Origin: a virus
IMG/VR virus record: IMGVR_UViG_3300030390_000436
Span: 1 to 48,276 of that record
Reading direction: 5' to 3' (one strand)
Length of the DNA: 48,276 bases
In this document: piece by piece, positions 11,692 to 29,472 of the stretch
How positions within the stretch are numbered: the first letter of the stretch is position 1
How the letters are laid out: each line of letters opens with the position of its first letter
Notes under the pieces: model-generated
What the model saw: only the letters and a program-made list of their open reading frames with translations
What the model was told of the DNA's origin: nothing
Databases searched by the model: none
Position numbers and translations under genes: made by a program

Positions 11692-11720
11692 AACAGATTA
11701 ACAAATTAAAAATTAAGCAA

Positions 11721-11786
11721 GGCCGCAGAGCCGCAGCGCGCTAACATAATAGAAAACAAAAGAGCGGCAAGGCCGCAGAGCCGCAG
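11721..11786 (+). repeat. GCCGCAGA repeat, copies 1 and 2
   Basis: Two copies of GGCCGCAGAGCCGCAG, at 11721-11736 and 11771-11786. They share a 22-base block starting at GCAAGG. Each copy is itself a tandem of the 8-mer GCCGCAGA. They lie between a terminator and a candidate promoter. Confidence 0.85.
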
Positions 11787-11828
11787 CGATTACGATAACG
11801 ACCAGCCTATAAAAAATTAATTATTTAC

Positions 11829-11857
11829 TTGTGGATTGGTTGTGGAATTACTATATT
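11829..11857 (+). promoter_or_regulatory. Candidate early promoter P2
   Basis: TTGTGG, 17 bases, TATATT, about 46 bases before the ATG of the Cys-rich gene at 11903. It is the best of the three similar candidates because its -10 is 5/6 consensus. Confidence 0.45.
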
Positions 11858-11902
11858 AAACCTATGCAATAATGCATGTTAACCAATGTGAAAGAAAACA
11901 AA

Positions 11903-12601
11903 ATGAAAAACGGAATCATATACAACGGGCCAAGCCTCTTGGATGGTAAGCCAATCGTTGCTATTGCAACGTATAGCGACCGAAACACTAAGACCGGCAA
12001 GGTATTACAAACCTATATTATCCGGTCCGATATATCGCCATTGAACGCAAGTAAAAACGGGGAAGACTTCTCAATTTGCGGCGATTGCAAATTTCGCGGC
12101 ACTCCAACAACGGATCCGGACCGGAAACAAGCGGTAAGTCGGGACTGTTATGTTAATCTAGGGCAAGGCCCGACTATCATTTATAAAACATTTATGCGCG
12201 GCGTATATCCGGCGGCGGATAACGTCGCGGACCGCGTTGACCTAGGCGCCGGTCGCGTCGTTCGTATCGGTACTTACGGGGATCCGGCCGCGGTCCCGTC
12301 GTGGATATGGGACCAACTAATTCGCCGGTGTGAATCTCACCTTGCTTACTCGCATCAATCCGGATTTCGTCCAGATATCGCGATGCAATCCGCGGACACA
12401 CAAGCGCAGGCCGTGGACCACTGGACCGCAGGCCGGCGGACGTTCCGAGTTATTACAACGTTAAACGACCTTGTGAAGGACAAAGAAATTTTATGTCCAG
12501 CAAGTAAAGAGGCCGGCCGGCGGGTCCAATGCAATGCCTGCAAGTTATGCGGCGGGACCTCGGTCAAGTCTTCCAAGTCAATCGCAATCGTGCAACACTA
12601 A
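11903..12601 (+). CDS. Cys-rich phage/plasmid protein of unknown function (232 aa)
   Basis: A 232-aa protein with N-terminal CGDCKFRG and CYV, a central VRIGTYGDPAAVP block, a YSHQSG segment and a C-terminal CPASKEAGRR...CNACKLCGG cluster. This order is typical of a widespread phage/plasmid family of unknown function (I believe a DUF7227-like group). The Cys groups probably bind a metal. The ATG at 11903 is preceded by AACCAATGTGAAAGAAAAC, a leader that recurs at two other early genes. It is followed by a UUCG-capped hairpin. Confidence 0.75.
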   Translation: MKNGIIYNGPSLLDGKPIVAIATYSDRNTKTGKVLQTYIIRSDISPLNASKNGEDFSICGDCKFRGTPTTDPDRKQAVSRDCYVNLGQGPTIIYKTFMRGVYPAADNVADRVDLGAGRVVRIGTYGDPAAVPSWIWDQLIRRCESHLAYSHQSGFRPDIAMQSADTQAQAVDHWTAGRRTFRVITTLNDLVKDKEILCPASKEAGRRVQCNACKLCGGTSVKSSKSIAIVQH

Positions 12602-12605
12602 ACCT

Positions 12606-12623
12606 AGGGGCCTTCGGGCCCCT
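12606..12623 (+). terminator. GC hairpin with TTCG loop
   Basis: A 7-bp stem AGGGGCC/GGCCCCT with the extra-stable TTCG tetraloop, right after the Cys-rich gene. Only TT follows, so the terminator is weak or the element protects the mRNA 3' end. Confidence 0.5.
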
Positions 12624-12649
12624 TCAACCAATGTGAAGGAATCATATGA

Positions 12650-12766
12650 ATGACACGTCAAGAAATTATAGATTTATTCGACAGCACTCACATCACAATG
12701 GCGGAGTTGTCCCGTATCTCGGGCCGTTCAATAAAACAATTAAAGAAAATTCTTATAGAAACATAA
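12650..12766 (+). CDS. Tiny HTH-like protein (38 aa)
   Basis: A 38-aa protein (MTRQEIIDLFDSTHITMAEL, then SRISGRSIKQLKKIL). The segment from THITMAELSRISGRSIKQLK has the spacing of a helix-turn-helix. The leader AACCAATGTGAAGGAATCAT precedes it. An out-of-frame ATG lies 4 bases upstream. A strong terminator starts 3 bases after the stop, which supports this frame over the longer overlapping one. It could be a mini-regulator. Confidence 0.55.
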   Translation: MTRQEIIDLFDSTHITMAELSRISGRSIKQLKKILIET

Positions 12767-12769
12767 ATG

Positions 12770-12796
12770 CCAGGGGGGAATCCCCCTGGTTCTTTT
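12770..12796 (+). terminator. Strong rho-independent terminator
   Basis: A stem CCAGGGGG/CCCCCTGG (8 bp) with a GAAT loop, followed by TTCTTTT. It ends the early unit before the inverted terminase-small/nuclease pair. Confidence 0.8.
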
Positions 12797-12802
12797 GTCA
12801 TC

Positions 12803-12817
12803 GGGGGAAACTCCCCC
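12803..12817. terminator. Second GC hairpin
   Basis: GGGGGA/TCCCCC with a 3-base loop, 6 bases after the strong terminator. It may serve leftward transcription from the nuclease gene. Confidence 0.35.
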
Positions 12818-12825
12818 AAGAATGG

Positions 12826-12981
12826 GGCCGCAGAGCCGCAGACCTAGGTCAAAGGCCGCAGAGCCGCAGAGCGCGGACCAACCACATCAAGATTTATATT
12901 AGAGAAGCGAGGCCGCAGAGCCGCAGACCTTCGCATAATGATCAAGCAAGCGGGGCCGCAGAGCCTCGAACAAAGCCGCAG
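12826..12981 (+). repeat. GCCGCAGA repeat, copies 3 to 6
   Basis: GGCCGCAGAGCCGCAG at 12826-12841, 12854-12869 and 12911-12926, plus an interrupted copy (GGCCGCAGAGCC at 12954-12965 and GCCGCAG at 12975-12981). All have the same orientation as copies 1 and 2. The last two lie inside the 3' end of the leftward nuclease gene. Confidence 0.85.
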
Positions 12982-13330
12982 GGTTCTCGAACCGCGAACC
13001 TTGTGCCTCGGACAGCCCACCAGACAACAGGTTAGGGCCCTCGGACCCCTCAAACAGAACTAGGGTGCGTGTAGAGAGGGCCTTTACCAAGAAGAAACTT
13101 AGACCACCTCGGTTTGAATAGGCCATATGCCACGCAACCTGATGAGGCGAGACTTTTACAGCGTTTCCTTTAGCTACCTTCAACTCTATCCAAACAGGTA
13201 GGCCATCACAAAGCAGATGCACGTCTGGTACACCACCTCCATGCTTGTTCTCAATCCTTGTTGCCAGTGTCTTTTTTGGCAGAGCGTTTCTTAGTGTGTT
13301 CCAAAAGTTCGCCTCTGGTCCCCTGCTCAT
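12899..13330 (-). CDS. PD-(D/E)XK nuclease (VRR-NUC / resolvase-like)
   Basis: A 143-aa protein with the nuclease core: RIEN (Glu27), GGGVPDVHLL (Pro35-Asp36), a WIELKV motif (Glu49, Lys51) and SPHQVAWH followed by a hydrophobic strand (GGLSFFLVKA). This is the layout of phage VRR-NUC or Holliday-junction-type endonucleases, which trim or resolve DNA before packaging. The C-terminus (from about residue 110) runs through the GCCGCAGA repeats and looks less conserved. It overlaps the small terminase by 80 bases in another frame. The ATG at 13330 has AAGGAT upstream. Confidence 0.75.
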   Translation of the reverse strand: MSRGPEANFWNTLRNALPKKTLATRIENKHGGGVPDVHLLCDGLPVWIELKVAKGNAVKVSPHQVAWHMAYSNRGGLSFFLVKALSTRTLVLFEGSEGPNLLSGGLSEAQGSRFENPAALFEALRPRLLDHYAKVCGSAASLL

Positions 13331-18660: not shown

Positions 18661-18709
18661 AGTAAAGAAGGAGAATGGCGAATGGAAATTGCGAGAGAAA
18701 GAAACATGA
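18404..18709 (+). CDS. Winged-helix-like protein (101 aa)
   Basis: A 101-aa basic protein whose C-terminal half has a winged-helix pattern (KFYLLVLMKERPLWTVPMLQ; WLTELKKQRKVKKENGEWKL). Its stop overlaps the next gene's ATG as ATGA at 18706-18709, which supports this frame as the coding one. The N-terminal 40 residues are less convincing and lie inside the previous gene's frame. Probably a DNA-binding regulator. Confidence 0.55.
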   Translation: MKDFKTNLQSMRSLAKKENKQMMKICRPTSAVLSPDRIVTEEMQKFYLLVLMKERPLWTVPMLQRKLRVKQCMILTWLTELKKQRKVKKENGEWKLREKET

Positions 18710-19224
18710 AAGAGTTTGACACTACAAAGATGCCGGCGGTGGTCGAGACGAACACCTTCTCTGGTAGTGCATTTGCAGTGAACTCTCAAGGCGAACAGAT
18801 CTTTATCAACTCTCGGATCATGGAGCGCATGAAGTTAAGAGAGGGCATGCAAGTCAATGCGTATGTTCTCCCCAACTACGAGGACAAGAGGGACACTATA
18901 CCTTGGCGCGCTATGCGGGTGGACACTACCCACAGTGACATTGCAGAACCACGGGATGAGTTGTCTGAAACAGACAGAGAGATCATGCGTATATTGTGGG
19001 ACAAGGAAGAGATCGGCAGACTATGGACTGACAAAGAGATAGCCGAGAAAGTAAATGCCGAGGCTGTCACAACTTTGGACACTGCATCTTCATTCGATTG
19101 CCATCGATCATGTGTCAGGTTGCACGATCGAGGGTTCATTTGCCGAGTTGATTTCAGCAGCGATCCTAAACCAATCCGGTCCACGATTTTGTGGACAGCA
19201 GACATCAGGGATTTTGAAGACTGA
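18706..19224 (+). CDS. OB/cold-shock-like plus winged-helix protein (172 aa)
   Basis: The N-terminal half resembles a cold-shock/OB fold (GSAFAVNSQGEQIFINSRIM; LREGMQVNAYVLPNYEDK; IPWRAMRV). The C-terminal half is a helical, winged-helix-like part (ETDREIMRILWDKEE; TDKEIAEKVNAEAVTT; VRLHDRGFICRVDF). The start is set by the ATGA overlap. It may bind single-stranded nucleic acid and regulate early genes. The domain calls are from pattern only. Confidence 0.6.
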   Translation: MKEFDTTKMPAVVETNTFSGSAFAVNSQGEQIFINSRIMERMKLREGMQVNAYVLPNYEDKRDTIPWRAMRVDTTHSDIAEPRDELSETDREIMRILWDKEEIGRLWTDKEIAEKVNAEAVTTLDTASSFDCHRSCVRLHDRGFICRVDFSSDPKPIRSTILWTADIRDFED

Positions 19225-20039: not shown

Positions 20040-20277
20040 TTGACTTTCCAATCTTACCTTTGCGTAATCTTTCGGGCTCCTTGCTGTAGCCTCTGATCTG
20101 AGTTACGTTATTGCGTTTCATGGACTTGAGTATCATTGCTGATATGTCTTCATCCAATCCGGTCTGTTGAGATAGAATCTTAGAACCAGTGTCCAAGTTT
20201 CTCAGTCCACGTTTGTAGTCTACCATGGTTTCTATTGCGGCATCGTGTTCTACTTTGCCGGCTTTAGTGTCAGCCAT
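20023..20277 (-). CDS. Small basic helical protein of SNF2 unit (84 aa)
   Basis: An 84-aa protein (MADTKAGKVEHDAAIETMVD; KILSQQTGLDEDISAMILKS) with a basic tail (RLRKGKIGKSNEPKR). It overlaps the helicase stop by 28 bases and the next gene by 17 bases, so all three are co-translated. It may be a DNA-binding partner of the helicase. Function not recognised. Confidence 0.6.
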   Translation of the reverse strand: MADTKAGKVEHDAAIETMVDYKRGLRNLDTGSKILSQQTGLDEDISAMILKSMKRNNVTQIRGYSKEPERLRKGKIGKSNEPKR

Positions 20278-21716
20278 TCTCTTGCTTCCTCTCCTAAAAC
20301 TTTTGCACCGATATCAATCTTAGATCGAAGGGACTTAACAATACGCTCATCAAGTGTACCCTCGCTGATCAGATCGACATAAGTGACAGGATTTTTTTGA
20401 CCGATTCGGTGCGCCCTGTCTTCACTTTGGATACGAGTTTCCAAGTTAAAGTCATTGGCATAGTATACCACAAGGTTAGCCTCGGTCAAAGTCAGGCCGT
20501 ACCCTGCGGTAGCTGGATTACCCACAAAGAATTTGAGTGGGTGATTAGAATCTTGGAAGTTAGTAACGATTGCTTGCCGTTCATCACCTCCGGTGTCCCC
20601 GAAGTAAGAAGCAGCGGACCCAGATCCGAGGGTCCTGTTGAGTGTAGCAGTGATCTCTTTTATGTCATGTCGAAACCGTGACCATATGATCGCCTTGCCA
20701 TCATGCTCTTCCAAAATTTCTAGCAGTGCATCCATTCTCCGAGTTGGAAACGTCATCATCGTTCCATCGTCAGACATGAGATGCCCTGACATAATCTGTT
20801 GTATTCTTAGAAGCTGGGTAATTACGGCCGGCGCCGTGACCAACTCTCCATTGTCGAGCATCAACAGTGCTTGTCGCTGGATGTCATCGTACATCTTTGC
20901 TTGTTCTGTTGTCAGCGTAACGTGTCGAACTGTGTATGTTTTGTCGGGCAGATCCAAACAATCTTTCTTCAATACTCGATAGCTAAACTGATCTATCTTC
21001 TCGGTTAACTCATCGAGGTTCTTGTAACCCAGCACTTGTTGAAAGGCGTGGGCTCCCATGTTTCTGCGTTGCAGCACAGCATACCGACCTTGGAATGCGT
21101 AGAACGAATCATATCCTAGTAACCCAGGTCCAAGGAACTCTGCTTGTGCATATATATCCATGGGTGATTTGGTTATTGGTGATCCGGTCAGCAATCTTTT
21201 GTACTTAAACCCTTCAGCAATTTTAATCAGGGCCTTTGTGCGCTTGGCTTTACTATTCTTGATTGTAGTGGACTCATCGATTGCGATCATCCCGTGCTTA
21301 CCTAGGTGTTTCGCCAACCACTTGCCTGCTACTTGTCCCTTGGTTGTGGAAAACGCTTCAACATTCATGACAAAGATAGTCAGACCGGAGAAAGGTTCCT
21401 TGACTGACTGGACTTCAGCCTGTTGTTTTTTATTTCCAACAGACACCCATCGAATCACACGGTGCGGAACGTCATCCGACATGTGTTGAGGGATTTCTTT
21501 GGCTATCCAGTTCCTATACACACCCTTTGGTGCGATGATCAGGGCGAAGTTGACTTCCCCTTTTGTAAACAACTGACCGAGGTTATCGATCAGCACTTTA
21601 GATTTACCCGTTCCCATCTCCATAAAGAAGCCGAAGGACAATCTATCTCCAACAGCGTCTAAGGAAGTCTTTTGATGGTCATATGGTACTGTTTTAAATT
21701 TATAGTTGACAGTCAT
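20250..21716 (-). CDS. SNF2-family (SF2) DNA helicase/translocase
   Basis: A 488-aa protein with two RecA-like lobes. Lobe 1 has Walker A MGTGKS (34-39), ALIIAPKG (motif Ia) and the DEST box (147-150). Lobe 2 has AIIWSRFRHDI, VVYYANDFNLETR and the motif VI region QSEDRAHRIGQ (430-440), the Snf2 signature. No accessory domain is visible, so this is the short phage type. Such enzymes move on dsDNA and may aid recombination-dependent replication or fork handling. ATG 21716 has AGGAGG upstream. It is read divergently from the replication operon. Confidence 0.92.
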   Translation of the reverse strand: MTVNYKFKTVPYDHQKTSLDAVGDRLSFGFFMEMGTGKSKVLIDNLGQLFTKGEVNFALIIAPKGVYRNWIAKEIPQHMSDDVPHRVIRWVSVGNKKQQAEVQSVKEPFSGLTIFVMNVEAFSTTKGQVAGKWLAKHLGKHGMIAIDESTTIKNSKAKRTKALIKIAEGFKYKRLLTGSPITKSPMDIYAQAEFLGPGLLGYDSFYAFQGRYAVLQRRNMGAHAFQQVLGYKNLDELTEKIDQFSYRVLKKDCLDLPDKTYTVRHVTLTTEQAKMYDDIQRQALLMLDNGELVTAPAVITQLLRIQQIMSGHLMSDDGTMMTFPTRRMDALLEILEEHDGKAIIWSRFRHDIKEITATLNRTLGSGSAASYFGDTGGDERQAIVTNFQDSNHPLKFFVGNPATAGYGLTLTEANLVVYYANDFNLETRIQSEDRAHRIGQKNPVTYVDLISEGTLDERIVKSLRSKIDIGAKVLGEEAREWLTLKPAK

Positions 21717-21790: not shown

Positions 21791-22351
21791 ATGACAGAAA
21801 TATTTGAAGACATGTTTGACGAAAGCCACGCCTTGGCAGATGTCAATGAACAAACAGGGAAGCAACTCAGCACCCTTGTAAAACAATTAAGACAAGTAGA
21901 AAGTCAGATGGAGGATGCTGAACAGCATTTGAAGTCTCTAAGAGCAGAGAAGCATAGGCTCTCTGTTGAGAACATCCCATCGTTAATGGATGAGATGGGC
22001 ATGGAGCGTATTGATGTAGACGGACTGACTGTTGAGCGTAAGCTGATGGTACATGCATCTATCCCAGCAGACAATAAAGAACAGGCGTTCGGTTGGTTAC
22101 GGGAGAACAACCTCGATGACATCATTAAGAATGACATCACTTGTTCCTTTGGCAAGGGGCAGGACAATCTAGCAGGCGATGTCGTTGGTATCCTGCGAGA
22201 GAAAGGTTTTGATCCTAAGACCAAGACCCACGTCCATCCAAGTACACTCAAGGCGTTCATTAAAGAACGTATCACCGCAGACAAACCAGTAGACCTCGAC
22301 ATGTTCGGGGCATTCGTAGCCAACGCAGCACATATCCGGAGGAAAACATAA
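21791..22351 (+). CDS. Coiled-coil replication-operon protein (186 aa)
   Basis: A 186-aa protein with a long coiled coil (about residues 20-65: LVKQLRQVESQMEDAEQHLK) and a globular second half (GMERIDVDGLTVERKLMVHA; VDLDMFGAFVANAAHIRRK at the end). It opens the replication operon, immediately before the SSB-like gene (TAATG overlap). Proteins of this shape accompany SSB-like genes in many phages. It may be a recombination mediator or loader, but that is inference. Confidence 0.65.
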   Translation: MTEIFEDMFDESHALADVNEQTGKQLSTLVKQLRQVESQMEDAEQHLKSLRAEKHRLSVENIPSLMDEMGMERIDVDGLTVERKLMVHASIPADNKEQAFGWLRENNLDDIIKNDITCSFGKGQDNLAGDVVGILREKGFDPKTKTHVHPSTLKAFIKERITADKPVDLDMFGAFVANAAHIRRKT

Positions 22352-23142
22352 TGGGTAACGCAGTCGCAAATAAAAAAAATGCAGAGTTAAGCACAGACTT
22401 TATGGATGATATCTTTGCAGATGGTGATGAGGGTACAACCTTTGCCGCCGACGAAATGATCATACCATTTATTCGTTTGGCACAAGCTATGTCTCCGGAA
22501 CTAAAGAAGAAGGAAGCAAAGTACATCGAGGGGTTGGATGAAGGTGATATCTTTAACAACCTTACCAATGAGGTGTATCCTGGCGACGATGGCATCAAGG
22601 TTATTCCTTGTTACGTTGTCACTAAATATACTGAGTGGCTTCCTGATCGTGGCGGGTTTGTGCAGGACTTAGATCCAAGTGACCCTACTATTGCTCAACG
22701 CAGAAGGGACGGTAACACTGAGATCCTTCCTAACGGAAACCATCTTCAGATTGCTGACTGTTACTTCTGTCTGTTGGTTACTGAAGATGAAGACTACATG
22801 CCTGTTGTCATTGACATGAAGGTTTCACAGATGAAAGTTTCAAAGCGTTGGAAATCTATGATCGCTATGAACAAAGCAAAGAATCCTAAGACAGGGCAGA
22901 TGCAGGTGTTGTCGTTGTTCAGCACGATGTGGAAGGTAGTATCGGTTGGAGATTCAAACAAGGCTGGTCAGCCTTACGCTAACTATGCCGTATCTAAAGT
23001 AGGTCCGGTAGCAAACCCAGTTCTACGGAATGAAGCTAAGAAGTTTCGTGCGAGTGTAGAGACTGGCGAGGCAAGAGCTATGACCGAGGAGACTTCTTCG
23101 GAGAACAGCGATGCCGTCGAGGAAGATGAAATACCGTTTTAA
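22351..23142 (+). CDS. Single-strand DNA-binding-like protein with acidic tip
   Basis: A 263-aa protein that ends EEDEIPF, matching the conserved C-terminal tip of bacterial SSB (DDIPF), which recruits partner enzymes. The preceding 20 residues are acidic. The body is beta-rich (GIKVIPCYVVTKYTEWLPDR; YMPVVIDMKVSQMKVSKRWK), compatible with an OB-fold ssDNA-binding protein, although no direct homology could be checked. The position in the replication operon agrees. A strong terminator follows 9 bases after the stop. Confidence 0.7.
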   Translation: MGNAVANKKNAELSTDFMDDIFADGDEGTTFAADEMIIPFIRLAQAMSPELKKKEAKYIEGLDEGDIFNNLTNEVYPGDDGIKVIPCYVVTKYTEWLPDRGGFVQDLDPSDPTIAQRRRDGNTEILPNGNHLQIADCYFCLLVTEDEDYMPVVIDMKVSQMKVSKRWKSMIAMNKAKNPKTGQMQVLSLFSTMWKVVSVGDSNKAGQPYANYAVSKVGPVANPVLRNEAKKFRASVETGEARAMTEETSSENSDAVEEDEIPF

Positions 23143-23151
23143 TTAAAGCGG

Positions 23152-23192
23152 GGGGTAGTTCTTGTAGAAAAGAACTACCCCTTTTTATTTTT
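23152..23192 (+). terminator. Strong terminator/attenuator between SSB-like and primase genes
   Basis: A 12-bp perfect stem GGGGTAGTTCTT/AAGAACTACCCC with a 6-base loop, then TTTTTATTTTT. It lies 9 bases after the SSB-like stop and 15 bases before the primase start. It would let the SSB-like protein be made in excess over the downstream enzymes. Confidence 0.9.
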
Positions 23193-23206
23193 CCAAGGGG
23201 CAAATA

Positions 23207-24736
23207 ATGTCAGATGCAAAAAAATTATTAGAAACGTTTGAGGGATCGAGCGCGGCTCACGGGACAACTGTTGTTGGTCGTGTTGGAAGAAACGGTAAAG
23301 CCGAGTCCGATAGCCGTGTTGTTCGTGGCGTACTTACAGAAGAAAAAATACAGGAACACATCGAAGGTAAGATGGGGGTGGGCTCTATTCCTATTAACCA
23401 AGACAACATGTGTAAGTTCGGTGCGTTAGATATAGATACATATGACTTGGATTTAAAAGCCTTGAACAGCAAGGTTCATCAGTTGAAGCTGCCATTAATC
23501 ATGTGCAGATCCAAGTCCGGTGGCGCCCATCTTTACTTGTTCACAAAGGATTGGGAGCCTGCGGCCTTGATCCGAGAATACCTAACCGAGATGTCAGTTG
23601 CGTTGGGTTACAGTGGGTGTGAGATATTTCCAAAGCAAGACAAGATCCTTGCTGATCGAGGAGATGTAGGCAACTTTATTAACATGCCTTACTACGGTGG
23701 GGACATCACAACACGCTACGCATTGGACACCAAGGGTGAGTCAATGACCTTGGCTCAGTTCCATAAGGCTGTATCAAAAGCAAAAGTGTCCGCTTCGGAC
23801 CTAGATTCTTTAACCTTTGGTGGTGAACGATCACACTTTACTGACGGTCCTTACTGCTTGGAAGTTATTGCAAGCCAAGGTGCGGTCACAGAATACCGTA
23901 ACATCTTTATGTTTAACGTCGGTGTATACTGCCGGCTAAAGTGGCCGGATGATTGGAAGAAGCATCACGAAGATTATAATCGAATGCTATGCAGTCCATC
24001 GTTAGAGGCGGGAGAGATTGTAGATCTGCAAAAGTCTTTGATGAAGAAAGACTACTTCTTACAATGCGAAGTCTGCCCTCTCAAGGATCACTGTGACAAG
24101 ACTATATGCAAGTCCAGACCGTTTGGTATAGGCGGTAGCGCGCCTGATGCACCCGAAGTTGGTGGCCTGACGATCATGTTGTCGGAACCTCGCATGTATT
24201 TCATGGATGTTAACGGTCAAAGGCTACAGCTTACTGTTGAACAACTACAGAACCAAACGTTGTGGCAGCGGTCATGCATGGAACAACTAAGCATGATGCC
24301 ACCAAACATGAAGGCCAATGACTGGCAACAGATGGTCAACAGTTTGATGGAGAAGTCTGTGAAGATGGAGGTCCCCGAAGAACTTACAATCAGTGGTCAG
24401 TTCAAGGAACTCCTAACCACTTACTGCACCAGTCGGATCAGGGCGATAGCACCAGAAGAAGTGTCTATGGGTAAACCTTGGACCGAGGACAACCTTACTA
24501 AGTTTACAATGAGTGGCTTGATGCAGTTTCTAAAGAACAGAAGCTTCAACGACTACAACAGAGCAGAGGTTCAAGAGCAAATAAAAAATATGAACGACGG
24601 TCTCGATTATCATGGGCATTTAAATATTAGAAAGCCTGATGGCAGTCGAACATCAATACGGGTCTGGTGGGTGCCGGCCTTTGAAAATGAAACAGCACTA
24701 CAAAAAGTGGAGATCGATAATGACATTCCCTTCTGA
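23207..24736 (+). CDS. Archaeo-eukaryotic-type primase (TOTE-like) with SSB-type tail
   Basis: A 509-aa protein with AEP primase motifs: FGALDIDTYD (Asp75, Asp77; metal ligands), RSKSGGAHLYLF (His108) and the EIFPKQDKI...GNFINMPYYGG block typical of TOTE-type primases. A CxxC-x5-C-x4-C cluster (Cys286, 289, 295, 300) probably binds zinc or Fe-S. The C-terminus is NDIPF, an SSB-like tip. It replaces the DnaG-type primase of T7 gp4 here and may have primase and polymerase activity. It overlaps the AlpA-like gene by 17 bases. Confidence 0.8.
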   Translation: MSDAKKLLETFEGSSAAHGTTVVGRVGRNGKAESDSRVVRGVLTEEKIQEHIEGKMGVGSIPINQDNMCKFGALDIDTYDLDLKALNSKVHQLKLPLIMCRSKSGGAHLYLFTKDWEPAALIREYLTEMSVALGYSGCEIFPKQDKILADRGDVGNFINMPYYGGDITTRYALDTKGESMTLAQFHKAVSKAKVSASDLDSLTFGGERSHFTDGPYCLEVIASQGAVTEYRNIFMFNVGVYCRLKWPDDWKKHHEDYNRMLCSPSLEAGEIVDLQKSLMKKDYFLQCEVCPLKDHCDKTICKSRPFGIGGSAPDAPEVGGLTIMLSEPRMYFMDVNGQRLQLTVEQLQNQTLWQRSCMEQLSMMPPNMKANDWQQMVNSLMEKSVKMEVPEELTISGQFKELLTTYCTSRIRAIAPEEVSMGKPWTEDNLTKFTMSGLMQFLKNRSFNDYNRAEVQEQIKNMNDGLDYHGHLNIRKPDGSRTSIRVWWVPAFENETALQKVEIDNDIPF

Positions 24737-24944
24737 TGAAAAACTAATGCGTATCGCAGAACTCAGCGAATGGCTTAGTGTACATAAGTCAACCATCTAC
24801 AAGTGGGTTGAGCAACGGGACTTTCCCAAACCAATTATCTTGGGCGAGAATGATGGCGCCAAGAACACAGCCAGCCGGTGGGTTGAGCAAGAGGTACGCG
24901 AATGGTTGAAGGAACGTCCAAGAGGCAAGAACTTTGAAGACTGA
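24720..24944 (+). CDS. AlpA/excisionase-like HTH protein (74 aa)
   Basis: A 74-aa protein with MRIAELSEWLSVHKSTIYKW followed by VEQRDFPKP, then WVEQEVREWLKERPRG. This matches AlpA/MerR-type winged HTH regulators (helix-turn-helix, then FPxP, then W...V..W). The ATG at 24720 overlaps the primase end, and a shorter start at 24747 is possible. In phages such proteins act as excisionases or activators. No integrase is visible, so a regulatory role is more likely. Confidence 0.78.
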   Translation: MTFPSDEKLMRIAELSEWLSVHKSTIYKWVEQRDFPKPIILGENDGAKNTASRWVEQEVREWLKERPRGKNFED

Positions 24945-26457
24945 TCAACTACTGTTGGGGCCCCCAGGTTGCGGCAAAACCCACACACTTATGCAGATGG
25001 TCGAAGATGCACTGGCTCAAGGTACGAGGCCCGAAGAGATAGGGTTCATGTCCTTTACCAAGAAGGCCGTAGAGGAAGCACGGGGCCGTGCGTGTGCGAG
25101 GTTTAACCTAGAGAATAAACAACTGCCTTGGTTTAGAACCCTGCACTCAGCGGCGTGGAGATCGCTTGGCTTGTCCCGTAACGACCTGTTGTCGATGGAA
25201 GACTGGAGAACCTTGGGGCAAACTCTGGGTCTGTCTTTCAAGGGAGCGGACGCTGCATCTCCGGATGATGGCATCCTGATTGCCGCGGTTGGCGGTGACG
25301 GTAGCAAGTATCTCCAGATGATAGACCGTTCACGGTATCGTCAGTGTACATTAGAGCAAGAGTTTAACGATGCAGAAGACTACAACCTGCACTTCAGTAA
25401 GATGAAACAGATTCACGAAACGGTAACCAGCTACAAGTCTGACAATCAGAAGGTAGACTTTGCTGACATGATCGAATTGGCTTTAGACATAGAGCCTCCA
25501 CGTTTGCAACTACTCTTGATAGACGAGGCTCAAGATCTCACACCACTTCAATGGGAGATGGTACTGCATTGGAGAACGAATGCAGAGAGGGTTGTGTATT
25601 CGGGAGACGACGATCAGGCTATCCACCGGTGGACCGGTGTAGTCGTTGAAAGGTTCATGCAAGTTACAGACAACGTAGATATCTTGTCACAATCTTACCG
25701 TCTACCCAAGCTAGTCTTTGATCTGTCTCAACAGATTGTAAAGCGTATCCACACACGGTTTGAGAAAGAGTTCTATCCAACCACTGAAGAGGGTGTTGTT
25801 CAGTACCATCAGACCATGGACAGTGTACCGATACACGAAGGCTCTTGGACAATCATGTGCCGGACCAATAGTTTTGTCAGGGAGTTTGCTGAGATCTTGA
25901 GAGAGTCAGGGTACTTGTACTCGATGAAGGGCACCCCTTCTATCAAGACGGAAGTAGGTAGGGCCATTCAAACCTGGAGAGAACTGCAAGCAGGGGACAT
26001 GGTTTCTGTCGATCGAATCAAGAAGATGTATGAGGTTGTGCCAAAGCAGGGGGACTACAAGGTTGTTAAGCGTGGAGCCGGCAATCTGTTAGATGCAGCG
26101 GACCCAACAGGTGATCTAAACATGGACGATCTGTACAAGCATTACGGGCTAGAGTGTGAAAGAACACGCGATGCCATGGATGTTGTGCGTCTGGGCAGCG
26201 ATGACAAGATGTATGCACAAGCTATCGAACGCAGGGGCGAGTCGATTACTGAGCCGCCTAGAATTAAAGTATCAACCTTTCATGCAATGAAGGGTGGCGA
26301 AGATGATAAGTGCTTGGTGTTCTTAGCTTCAACCAAGGCATGCATGGAGTCAAGGTATCCGGATGATGAGCATCGAGCGTTCTATGTAGGGGTCACACGC
26401 GCGCAAAAAGAACTGCATATTTTGGACACAGACAAGAAGTATAGGTATGAATTATGA
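24934..26457 (+). CDS. UvrD/Rep-like SF1 helicase
   Basis: A 507-aa SF1A helicase. Motif I is LGPPGCGKTHTL (residues 8-19), Ia is FMSFTKKAVEEAR, motif II is LLIDEAQDLTPLQW, motif III is YSGDDDQAIHRWTG, motif V is STFHAMKGGEDD and motif VI is FYVGVTRAQKEL. The set is complete, so the enzyme should be active, probably unwinding 3' to 5'. The start is TTG at 24934 with AGAGG 8 bases upstream; no ATG precedes the Walker A. It is a candidate replicative helicase because no gp4- or DnaB-type helicase was found. Confidence 0.9.
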   Translation: MKTDQLLLGPPGCGKTHTLMQMVEDALAQGTRPEEIGFMSFTKKAVEEARGRACARFNLENKQLPWFRTLHSAAWRSLGLSRNDLLSMEDWRTLGQTLGLSFKGADAASPDDGILIAAVGGDGSKYLQMIDRSRYRQCTLEQEFNDAEDYNLHFSKMKQIHETVTSYKSDNQKVDFADMIELALDIEPPRLQLLLIDEAQDLTPLQWEMVLHWRTNAERVVYSGDDDQAIHRWTGVVVERFMQVTDNVDILSQSYRLPKLVFDLSQQIVKRIHTRFEKEFYPTTEEGVVQYHQTMDSVPIHEGSWTIMCRTNSFVREFAEILRESGYLYSMKGTPSIKTEVGRAIQTWRELQAGDMVSVDRIKKMYEVVPKQGDYKVVKRGAGNLLDAADPTGDLNMDDLYKHYGLECERTRDAMDVVRLGSDDKMYAQAIERRGESITEPPRIKVSTFHAMKGGEDDKCLVFLASTKACMESRYPDDEHRAFYVGVTRAQKELHILDTDKKYRYEL

Positions 26458-26891
26458 TAGCAAGTGTCTGCCTAGCGTTGGCCCTGTACCATGAGGCACG
26501 GGGGGAATCTCTTCAAGCTCAACTTATGGTGGCTAAAGTTATAGTGAATAGGGTAGAATCAAAACGATGGCCTTCAAAACTCTGTGATGTAGTCATGGAG
26601 GACCGACAGTTTTCTTTTGTTAAGAAGGGCAACGTACCTCCGACCAAGGATCAAGAGGCGTGGGACAAATCTAAGAACTTAGCGGAGGAGATACTAAAGT
26701 ACCCAAGCATTCTACCTTACAGCGATGCCGATCACTACCACACTGTAAACGTTCGACCTATATGGCGGCGGAAACTGTACAGAATAGTTCGCATAGATCA
26801 ACATGTTTTCTATTCGTATAAGAAACCAGAGAGCGTACAAATTAGTTTACGTCCAAAGATACGGCCTAATCAGAAGGAGACAAAAAGATGA
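26454..26891 (+). CDS. SleB-type cell-wall hydrolase (lysin)
   Basis: A 145-aa protein of the Hydrolase_2/SleB family: LALALYHEARGESLQAQLMV (catalytic Glu14), VIVNRVESKRWPSKLCDVV, and QFSFVKKG. Family members cleave peptidoglycan. No conventional signal peptide is seen, although the N-terminus is mildly hydrophobic, so release through the holin at 302-703 fits. It overlaps the helicase stop as ATGA and the next gene (26888). Its place among replication genes, not next to the holin, is notable. Confidence 0.85.
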   Translation: MIASVCLALALYHEARGESLQAQLMVAKVIVNRVESKRWPSKLCDVVMEDRQFSFVKKGNVPPTKDQEAWDKSKNLAEEILKYPSILPYSDADHYHTVNVRPIWRRKLYRIVRIDQHVFYSYKKPESVQISLRPKIRPNQKETKR

Positions 26892-27046
26892 ACTGCCCTC
26901 ACTGTGCGACGGAACTTATCTGGGGAGGGGATCACGACTGTGAGGATGATGAGGAATACCTTATTGTTTCAAATCTATCCTGTCCCGAATGTTCCACTTT
27001 TGTATTAGTTTATTACCCAAAGGAGAAAGAAGATGAAACGCAATGA
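26888..27046 (+). CDS. Zinc-ribbon mini-protein (52 aa)
   Basis: A 52-aa acidic protein with two CxxC knuckles (MNCPHCATEL and SCPECSTFVL), a zinc ribbon. It overlaps the lysin stop (ATGA) and the start of the next gene by 14 bases, so it is part of the operon. Zinc ribbons of this size commonly adapt polymerases or other enzymes, but its partner is unknown. Confidence 0.65.
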   Translation: MNCPHCATELIWGGDHDCEDDEEYLIVSNLSCPECSTFVLVYYPKEKEDETQ

Positions 27047-27353
27047 AATTTTGGACAAGGCGAAAGACTTAGTCAACGGAGCTAGGGCCAAGGATTATGG
27101 AGATGCGTTCGAGAACCACAGCCGCATAGCCAATGGATGGAACGTCATAATGAACGGGGCTCTGATAAGCCACGGCTACCTGACAGAGCAACACGTTGTC
27201 TTAATGATGGATTGGGTGAAGACTGCTCGTCTTCTTGAGACCATGGACCATGATGATTCGTGGACGGACAAGGCAGGGTATTCAAGCTTGGGTGGAGAGT
27301 TCTCCGAAGAGACCAGATCGATAGAAGAACTAACAGAGATGGCGAAAAAATAA
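27033..27353 (+). CDS. DUF6378-like phage protein (106 aa)
   Basis: A 106-aa protein with ARAKDYGDAFENHSRIANGW, LTEQHVVLMMDWVKTARLLE and HDDSWTDKAGYSSLGGEF. This matches the recurring phage pattern RxKDYGxxxENFxRIAxxW ... DVALMMxxxKxARL ... DSWxDIAGYAxLGxE (DUF6378). The all-alpha fold may relate to nucleotide-handling proteins, but its activity is unknown. The stop overlaps the polymerase start as TAATG. Confidence 0.8.
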   Translation: MKRNEILDKAKDLVNGARAKDYGDAFENHSRIANGWNVIMNGALISHGYLTEQHVVLMMDWVKTARLLETMDHDDSWTDKAGYSSLGGEFSEETRSIEELTEMAKK

Positions 27354-29272
27354 TGACTCAAGGCAAGCTGTTTAATCTTGGCAACCAAGACAAAGACTAT
27401 CAGATCCGTTCGGAGATGGAGTTGATTGACACTGATTGGAATATACCTACTGAGTTTCCTGACTTGACGGGGTATGATCAGATAGCTGTAGACCTTGAAA
27501 CAAAGGACCCTAACATAAAGACACAAGGACCAGGATGGGCTAGAAAGGACGGACACATCATTGGTATTGCGGTAGCAGCCGGCGACTTCAAAGGGTACTT
27601 CCCCTTGCGTCATGCGAACGGACACAACCTAGATCCCACTATGACAATGCGTTGGCTCAAGACACAGATGGCTACGCCTGATGTTGATAAGATTATGCAC
27701 AACGCAACCTATGATGCTGGCTGGATGAGGGCCGAGGGCGTTGAAGTGCAGGGCCGTATTGTTGACACCATGATTACTGGCGCTTTGGTGAACGAGAACC
27801 GTTGGTCCTTTGGCCTCGATGCTATGGCAAGAGACTACGTTGGTATACGCAAGGATGAGAAGCTTCTGAAGGCCGCGGCTCAAGAGTGGGGGATAGATCC
27901 CAAGGCAGAGATGTGGCAGTTGCCGCCTAAGTATGTCGGCGCCTATGCAGAACAGGATGCTGTAGCCACGTTAAAGTTATGGCAGGCTCTGAAGATCCAG
28001 TTAGAGAAGCAGGACCTCTGGTCTATTTGGAAGCTTGAGACTGGTTTGATTCCTTGCCTGTTGGACATGAGAACCAATGGTGTGCGTGTGGACTTGGATA
28101 AGGCAGACAAGAACAAGAAGTTAATTCAGAAACGTTCTAAGGAATTGCGTCAGGATATTAAGAAGAGTGCAGGCGTAGACGTAGATATATGGGCCGGTGC
28201 ATCAGTAGCCAAGATGTTTGATAAGCTTGGGTTGGAATATCCAAGGACCGAGGCTGGAGCCCCGTCGTTCACTAAGTCTTATCTAAACTCTCACCCGCAT
28301 GAGGCTTGCCAGTCATTGGTTAAGCTTCGTGAGTTCGACAAGGCAGACAGTACATTTATCGACAGCATCTTGAAGCATGAACACAACGGACGCATACACA
28401 CAGAACTGCACTCCACTCGCAGGGATGAAGGGGGTACTGTCACCGGAAGATTTTCTTCAAGCAACCCCAACCTTCAGCAGATCCCAGCCCGTGACAAGGA
28501 GATCAAGAAGTTAATCCGAGGATTGTTTATACCAGAGGATGGAGACAAGTGGGGATCATTTGATTACTCAAGCCAAGAGCCAAGGTTATTGGTACACTTC
28601 GCGGCATCGATGCCACCCAACATGCAGGATCCCGTGCTTCAAACCATCGTTGAAGAGTTCAACACTAGCGATGTAGACCTTCACCAGATCGTTGCAGATT
28701 TGGCAGGGATCACACGCAAGCAAGCCAAGACTGTAAACCTGGGTATCATGTATGGCATGGGCGTAGCTAAGTTGGCGAATCAAATGGCGATCACAAAGGA
28801 TGAGGCCAAGTCAATCATCTCTGATCATCGAGAGAAGGTTCCATTCGTTAAACAGTTGGCTGACATTGCAAGCAAGAGGGCCGGCAACAACGGGCAGATA
28901 CGGACGCTCCTAGGTAGGCTGTGTCGCTTTGATATGTGGGAGCCTACGTCTTTTGAGTACAACAAACCTTTGCCTCTGGAGGAAGCGGAGAAGGAGTATG
29001 GGGGCATGGGCAAGTTACGCCGTGCGTTTACATACAAGGCATTGAACCGTTTGATCCAAGGATCCGCGGCCGATCAGACTAAGAAAGCGATGCTTGATTG
29101 CTATAACGCTGGACTTACTCCTATGCTCACGGTCCACGATGAGTTATGCTTCAGTATAGGAAGCGACAAACAAGCCACTCAAGTCAAAGAAATTATGGAG
29201 ACTGGCGTACCTTTAAAGGTTCCTTCCAAGATTGATCAAGAACTCAAGGATAATTGGGGAGAGATTGAATGA
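27353..29272 (+). CDS. Family A DNA polymerase with 3'-5' exonuclease, Leu762 type
   Basis: A 639-aa replicative polymerase. Exonuclease: VDLET (Asp47, Glu49), HNATYDAGW (Asp121), YAEQDAVAT (Tyr198, Asp202). Polymerase: motif A SFDYSSQEPRLL (Asp404, Glu409), motif B RKQAKTVNLGIMYG (Arg455, Lys459, Tyr467), motif C TVHDELCF (His595, Asp596, Glu597). The residue equal to E. coli Phe762 is Leu463. No 5'-nuclease domain is present. The start at 27353 overlaps the DUF6378-like stop, and the size is typical of phage PolA. All catalytic residues are intact. Confidence 0.95.
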   Translation: MTQGKLFNLGNQDKDYQIRSEMELIDTDWNIPTEFPDLTGYDQIAVDLETKDPNIKTQGPGWARKDGHIIGIAVAAGDFKGYFPLRHANGHNLDPTMTMRWLKTQMATPDVDKIMHNATYDAGWMRAEGVEVQGRIVDTMITGALVNENRWSFGLDAMARDYVGIRKDEKLLKAAAQEWGIDPKAEMWQLPPKYVGAYAEQDAVATLKLWQALKIQLEKQDLWSIWKLETGLIPCLLDMRTNGVRVDLDKADKNKKLIQKRSKELRQDIKKSAGVDVDIWAGASVAKMFDKLGLEYPRTEAGAPSFTKSYLNSHPHEACQSLVKLREFDKADSTFIDSILKHEHNGRIHTELHSTRRDEGGTVTGRFSSSNPNLQQIPARDKEIKKLIRGLFIPEDGDKWGSFDYSSQEPRLLVHFAASMPPNMQDPVLQTIVEEFNTSDVDLHQIVADLAGITRKQAKTVNLGIMYGMGVAKLANQMAITKDEAKSIISDHREKVPFVKQLADIASKRAGNNGQIRTLLGRLCRFDMWEPTSFEYNKPLPLEEAEKEYGGMGKLRRAFTYKALNRLIQGSAADQTKKAMLDCYNAGLTPMLTVHDELCFSIGSDKQATQVKEIMETGVPLKVPSKIDQELKDNWGEIE

Positions 29273-29472
29273 AGTTAAAGAAGTTTAAAAGTCTAGGTTT
29301 AGATCAGATGCATCCCATGCAGCTTGCTGCCCTGATGCGGTTAGTTAACACATCTCTAAGACTAGCCAGCATGATTGATGACGATATCCTAGCCGAGGTC
29401 GAGGAAGATGCTAACGACCTAGTCCAGTTGTTTGGTGGCGTGGGAGTTAAGGTAGAAGTCGAAGAGTTTTAA
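29269..29472 (+). CDS. Small protein after polymerase (67 aa)
   Basis: A 67-aa acidic helical protein (MKLKKFKSLGLDQMHPMQLA; MIDDDILAEVEEDANDLVQL). It overlaps the polymerase stop (ATGA) and ends in a TTAA tetranucleotide that also holds the stop of the converging ejection-protein gene. No family recognised. Confidence 0.65.
   Translation: MKLKKFKSLGLDQMHPMQLAALMRLVNTSLRLASMIDDDILAEVEEDANDLVQLFGGVGVKVEVEEF

Follow-up and report, generated by a model that had tools for sequence, protein, structure and literature searches.

The marine phage represented by IMG/VR record IMGVR_UViG_3300030390_000436 (48,276 bases, a single strand read 5′ to 3′; this whole stretch is called the window hereafter) encodes a PolA-centered replisome in which a stand-alone archaeo-eukaryotic primase (AEP) and a UvrD-type superfamily 1A (SF1A) helicase probably do the work of the T7 primase-helicase gp4. 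The gene set is present with intact motifs; no helicase of the DnaB, gp4 or SF3-like type was found; the AEP primase and the SF1 helicase form an obligate pair; and the C-terminal tails of the primase and of a putative single-stranded DNA-binding protein (SSB) match. A first-pass annotation of this DNA had proposed an SNF2 protein, a coiled-coil protein, an SSB-like protein, an AEP primase, a UvrD-like helicase and a family A polymerase (PolA) with Leu at position 762, and profile matches place all of them where it had put them. It had also called the system minimal and unusual, which is not supported. Nasko et al. 2018 (PMC6302109) describe Leu762 Group II PolAs accompanied by SNF2 and UvrD helicases, with the ring helicase absent, and report that this group recruits 16.4% of the PolA-contig reads in a Chesapeake virome, second only to the Tyr762/gp4 group. 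For polymerases of this kind, strand displacement was proposed by Keown et al. 2022 (PMC9069017). Thus, the combination of PolA-Leu762, SNF2 and UvrD without a ring helicase was already known as an abundant class, and the AEP/SF1/PolA replication set as a whole is widespread and in part already described. Within this set, nothing is more informative than the matching tails of the primase and the putative SSB, which the first-pass annotation had not noticed.

The lack of a ring helicase requires attention to the completeness of the window. Neither terminal repeats nor circularity was found in it, and in a related contig, L056 (48,647 bp), about 6 kb separate the genes that match the two window ends. 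The L056 region of about 8.2–14.6 kb is the counterpart of a segment that appears to be missing between window positions 1 and 48276, and the several genes there that are absent from the window are probably head genes. By this comparison, the window is an incomplete genome that appears to lack a few kb of the head region. Because of this gap, the window alone cannot prove the absence of a ring helicase, and the absence was therefore tested on relatives. The gp4, DnaB, DnaC, DnaG and phage RNA polymerase genes that the first-pass annotation had not seen were not seen in the window scans either: DnaB_C gave no match in the window, and no ring helicase, DnaG, DnaC or RNA polymerase occurred among the PHROG matches of the 50 window proteins. 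DnaB_C was likewise above the cut-off in none of 57 AEP-primase genomes or contigs, while the T7 positive control scored 6.8e-20; a sub-threshold match in one relative, G007 (11.3 bits), was taken as noise. These 57 include the complete records MW202510, OR003939 and MW176034, and also two IMG/VR records with a PolA or SNF2 gene running from one record end into the other, a sign that these genomes are complete and circularly permuted. The DnaB_C, DUF5906 and PHROG scans showed no hidden ring or SF3 helicase. One small window protein (12899–13330, minus strand) matches PHROG 2165, labeled "DNA helicase"; it has a weak Pfam Hjc match, its other PHROG matches are endonucleases or resolvases, and it is probably a nuclease with a misleading label.

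Which protein opens the fork can be approached from the co-occurrence of genes. A UvrD-family gene of about 500 amino acids (aa) accompanies the stand-alone AEP primase in 54 of 54 genomes, and DUF5906 was found in none of 39 such genomes; conversely, in Enc34-like phages and in ZP6 the AEP primase is fused to PriCT-2 and DUF5906, and none of the nine distinct genomes of this fusion type carries a UvrD gene, these counts not being independent by descent. DUF5906 is presumably SF3-like, as in D5/VapE-type domains. Such an alternation of SF1 and SF3-like proteins with primase architecture is expected if the two fill the same role, and it points to the SF1 protein, rather than the SNF2 protein, as the fork helicase. 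The first-pass annotation had left unwinding to either of them, and only the SF1 half of that proposal gains from these data.

The SNF2-family translocase, a member of superfamily 2 (488 aa; 20250–21716, minus strand, divergent from the operon; PF00176 5.4e-21, PF00271 3.9e-13, phrog_62 1e-115), is itself a constant neighbor: it adjoins the module in 44 of 45 related genomes, the sole miss in the PF00176 search being a contig on which the primase lies close to the edge. That it is the fork helicase is nevertheless very improbable, since it also occurs in Enc34 and ZP6, where the primase already includes a helicase domain, and alongside a polymerase of the Pol III type in Burkholderia phage WTB; moreover, known SNF2 proteins are described in PMC9069017 as double-stranded DNA translocases that do not separate strands.

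The SF1 protein (507 aa; 24934–26457, plus strand; PF00580 6.9e-25) has all SF1 motifs intact: GPPGxGKT, DEAQD, GDDDQ and the residues of motifs V and VI are invariant or nearly so among the relatives. Its closest solved relative by profile is PcrA (2.9e-41). Between two aligned blocks, its 2B region spans about 93 profile positions versus about 183 residues in PcrA. It thus lacks a full 2B subdomain (about 90 residues shorter than in PcrA); as 2B is not a defining catalytic feature, the protein is regarded as a variant. The Rep monomer becomes active when 2B is removed, and by analogy the short 2B may make the phage protein a de-repressed helicase. Unwinding with 3′-5′ polarity is predicted from its family membership.

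A different view is that no replicative helicase is needed because strand displacement by PolA suffices, with UvrD and SNF2 serving repair, recombination or nucleoid clearance. According to PMC9069017, only Leu762 and Phe762 viral PolAs displaced strands in vitro, this ability was associated with an SNF2 gene, and in the authors' proposal the polymerase takes the place of the helicase; the displacement, however, reached a moderate to strong level only when the enzyme was highly concentrated. Furthermore, the strict AEP-UvrD pairing and the replacement of UvrD by the SF3-like DUF5906 are unexpected for a mere repair factor. We consider this view rather improbable, and we continue to favor the SF1 helicase.

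The primase (509 aa; 23207–24736, plus strand) matches PF22548 AEP-TOTE (1e-14) and the primase family phrog_21866 (5e-80). The profile of its relatives (n = 51) matches crystal structures of CAPP (CRISPR-associated) Prim-Pol (7nqf, 3e-11), and Foldseek with the AlphaFold model retrieved the same Prim-Pol structures (1.2e-9); this and the other AlphaFold models were built from alignments of contig sequences only. Profile and model thus agree that the protein has the AEP fold that had been proposed for it. All 51 homologues retain D75, D77 and H108 of the motifs DxD and sxH, the residues expected to contact metal and nucleotide; Cys 287, 296 and 301 are conserved, and primer synthesis is predicted. 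A weak match (0.0013) to the S1/CSD-like domain of TOTE conflict systems was also observed at 18682–19224 (plus strand), which is of interest given the TOTE-type primase nearby.

Upstream of the primase lies the Pam3 gp34-like gene (263 aa; 22351–23142, plus strand; PF23977 7e-52), whose product had been labeled SSB-like. Its AlphaFold model (pLDDT 86) shows the OB-like strand order β1-β2-β3-α-β4-β5, and the protein bears a C-terminal tail, EEDEIPF, resembling the C-terminus of bacterial SSB (SSB-Ct). Three observations weigh against the label. One is that the Foldseek matches to SsbA are weak, the best E value of 0.056 not being significant. Another is that the profile detected no homology to T7 gp2.5 or Enc34 SSB; for these two reasons, the SSB role is inferred. 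The last is that Acinetobacter, Pseudomonas and Alteromonas phages with Z-DNA encode an additional small protein with the classical DDDLPF or DDDIPF end, so that gp34 may not be the main SSB there. A role as a single-stranded DNA (ssDNA)-binding protein is plausible and is considered probable. The additional protein has 95–108 aa in the purZ-type phages (L225, 17667–17993; L227, 22073–22372; L325, 9988–10275). Relatives of gp34 are encoded in 503 GenBank phage records. A gp33/gp34-like pair was also found in Pbunavirus and Burkholderia phage WTB (L324, 9866–11474; L326, 9289–10837), where it lies near a helicase gene, which in WTB is of the SNF2 type, and near a polymerase of the DNA polymerase III type; the pair is therefore a portable cassette.

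The tails of the two proteins are alike: gp34 ends in EEDEIPF and the primase in EIDNDIPF, and no other open reading frame of the window ends in PF. In close relatives, an end of a hydrophobic residue followed by PF is present in 77 of 79 primases and 71 of 73 gp34 proteins, while the preceding residues vary freely. In the clade of phage DSL-LC04, PF ends 79 of 81 primases (mostly as SPF, often after basic residues) and 70 of 79 gp34 proteins. Elsewhere the two tails share other letters, namely NIV/DIV in HTVC027P and SEF/GEF in SH-Ab 15497, and even in Enc34, which has a different replisome, the SSB and primase tails are DEDEV and DEDEV. Over 50 dereplicated genomes, the primase-gp34 similarity per genome at three residues was 6.64, versus 1.39 in shuffled pairs, and none of 5000 shuffles reached the observed value; it also exceeded the shuffles over 13 hand-chosen lineages. 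As controls, the UvrD and coiled-coil tails matched neither the primase nor the gp34 tails.

This likeness might instead be accidental, or it might come from acidic low complexity or from the overlap of genes. The primase tail does overlap the start of a helix-turn-helix (HTH) gene in close relatives, related genomes have tails in common by descent, acidic ends are frequent among DNA-binding proteins, and the lineage representatives were picked after viewing. However, no fewer than 20 different N-termini occur in the HTH frame, while PF is retained by every one of the 34 distinct variants of the primase frame, preceded by I, V or Y and written with three Ile and four Pro codons; the primase IPF as a mere consequence of the HTH start was accordingly rejected. 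In addition, the gp34 tail has no such overlap, clade B has basic tails on its primases (e.g., KKRSPF), and the UvrD and coiled-coil tails are without a match, those of PolA and SNF2 being nominal at most. We therefore regard a fortuitous likeness as unlikely. Several results still count against a docking function of the tails: in some settings, the control comparisons of primase with PolA, gp34 with PolA and gp34 with SNF2 reached a nominal p of 0.02–0.05; no match is seen in R26L, in ZP6 or in many genomes of clade C, clade C alone giving a weak signal (p 0.008 to 0.11); and the shuffles leave shared ancestry partly in place.

If the tails do dock, their partner may belong to the host or to the phage. 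In the former case, the DxIPF tails would mimic the bacterial SSB-Ct and recruit host PriA/PriC or DnaG to load DnaB, host DnaB would unwind, and the phage UvrD would be accessory. Both tails in the clade of the window are indeed D/E-x-IPF, the same form as the SSB-Ct consensus DDDIPF, which is recognized by host SSB-binding proteins (PMC5872125), and the phage genomes lack a ring helicase. The tails of other lineages (RSPF/APF, NIV/DIV, SEF/GEF), by contrast, are not SSB-Ct-like yet are mutually alike, so a phage partner fits better than a host one, and the UvrD gene is never lost (54/54). We also know of no precedent for pairing host DnaB with a phage PolA. Unwinding by host DnaB is thus a possibility to which we give little weight. 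For a phage partner, T7 provides the model: its gp2.5 ends in DEDGDF and its gp4 in SNDTDF, and both tails bind T7 DNA polymerase (PMC12230644, PMC5686142). As these twin tails dock the SSB and the primase-helicase on the polymerase, a shared docking site is suggested here as well. More broadly, and tentatively, as something possible rather than probable, the tails of the SSB-like protein and the primase may match in phage replisomes of diverse origin because the two compete for a single pocket, which would probably be on PolA; in the AEP and SF1A replisome, this arrangement would replace the helicase-primase fusion of T7 and would allow a leading-strand (3′-5′) helicase to work with an AEP primase.

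The mechanism that we favor can then be outlined. The SF1A helicase would move 3′-5′ on the leading-strand template ahead of PolA. With the helicase there, the primase could not ride behind it on the lagging strand as in T7, nor could a lagging-strand primase be fused to it as in gp4. The primase would instead be brought to the fork by its own C-terminal tail. The gp34-like protein would coat ssDNA and, bearing the same tail as the primase, like T7 gp2.5, would dock in turn with the primase on one partner, most likely PolA, and exchange with it. Strand displacement by PolA may help, and the SNF2 protein would strip or remodel protein on duplex DNA. Polarity, docking on PolA and exchange of the primase with the SSB-like protein are the inferred parts of this scheme. 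Against it stand the low processivity of UvrD itself, the fact that PolA is suggested as the docking partner by the T7 analogy only, and the reliance of the whole mechanism on sequences and models.

The polymerase at the center of this scheme (about 640 aa; 27353–29272, plus strand; PF00476 5.5e-61) carries a 3′-5′ exonuclease domain (PF01612 6.6e-16) and matches Klenow by profile (9.5e-39). It was found in 45 of 45 related genomes. The residue at position 762 (KTVNLGIMYG) is Leu in the window and in all 168 homologues having that column, while T7 has Tyr. The NCBIfam model that fits it best is that of the 2-aminoadenine polymerase DpoZ (3e-96, under the cut-off of that model), although no gene of the purZ type was seen in the window.

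Several known systems can be compared with this module. The Leu762 Group II PolA replisome shares with it Leu762, SNF2-like and UvrD-like neighbors and the absence of a ring helicase, and the window also resembles it in that no ribonucleotide reductase was seen; in the parts available, however, PMC6302109 and PMC9069017 give no stand-alone AEP partner, gp33/gp34 pair, tails or SF3-like alternation. A limited search of partial literature found none on the obligate AEP partner, the SF3-like alternation or the matching tails, and their newness is provisional. The T7 replisome (gp2.5, gp4, gp5) is alike in its family A polymerase and in the terminal Phe on the tails of its SSB and priming protein. 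It differs in that gp4 joins a TOPRIM primase and a ring helicase in one protein and the polymerase is of the Tyr762 type; moreover, gp34 is not detectably homologous to gp2.5, and the window has no gp4-type primase-helicase. The Enc34/Nazgul-like phages and ZP6 (AEP-PriCT2-DUF5906, SNF2, PolA) share the AEP primase, PolA and SNF2, and Enc34 also has the DEDEV tail in common between its SSB and primase, but in these phages the SF3-like helicase domain is fused to the primase and UvrD is absent, and the ZP6 primase tail is unmatched. The same stand-alone AEP-SF1-PolA module occurs in phage DSL-LC04, whose gene order is that of the window, in podovirus ct3Et533 and in the cultured HTVC027P, SH-Ab 15497 and JeffCo; in these the primases are only 26–39% identical and have other tail letters. 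SH-Ab 15497 and PSA28 differ further in having an adenylosuccinate synthetase (purZ-type) gene and the extra small DDDLPF/DDDIPF protein. The herpesvirus UL5/UL52 helicase-primase likewise combines an SF1 helicase with an AEP-type primase. Its UL5, however, is SF1B (5′-3′), the two proteins form a heterotrimer with UL8, and homology is not claimed.

The order of SNF2 (minus strand), coiled-coil, gp34, primase, UvrD and PolA genes is fixed in two clades, while in a third the set is rearranged yet complete. The operon begins with a Pam3 gp33-like coiled-coil protein (DUF7307, 186 aa; 21791–22351, plus strand; PF23984 4.8e-29), syntenic in DSL-LC04 and Burkholderia phage WTB. Homologues of this protein are annotated as DNA-end protecting protein or host-nuclease inhibitor, and no credible relative of it was found in PDB by sequence profile. 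A strong, terminator-like hairpin with a T run (23150–23183, plus strand) parts the gp34-like gene from the primase gene, and a similar hairpin is present in 51 of 72 close relatives. The operon therefore may not be one uniform transcript, and the hairpin would let the gp34-like protein be made in excess over the primase. The rightward genes named by the first-pass annotation are all in the operon, but three others had gone unmentioned: one for an AlpA/MerR-like HTH protein (24720–24944, plus strand; PF05930 1e-8), whose start overlaps the last primase codons, one for a SleB-like cell-wall hydrolase (26454–26891, plus strand; PF07486 8.9e-22) and one for a DUF6378 protein (27033–27353, plus strand; PF19905 3.2e-23). 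The latter two look like passengers. Elsewhere in the window, short repeats containing GGCCGCAGAGCCGCAG occur at five places in 11717–12930, and neither tRNAs nor Rfam matches were found.

The observation that abundant marine phages lack a ring helicase can now be turned into a testable question about the protein that opens the fork, since each primase architecture cleanly goes with its own type of helicase, an SF1 gene or a fused SF3-like domain. The matching tails, in turn, predict how the fork exchanges primase for putative SSB. Cultured members are available in JeffCo and Barton (Acinetobacter calcoaceticus ATCC 23055), R26L (Dinoroseobacter shibae) and HTVC027P (Pelagibacter). If the tails do act in this way, these phages would combine a leading-strand helicase and an AEP primase in a design that is elsewhere typical of archaea and eukaryotes.

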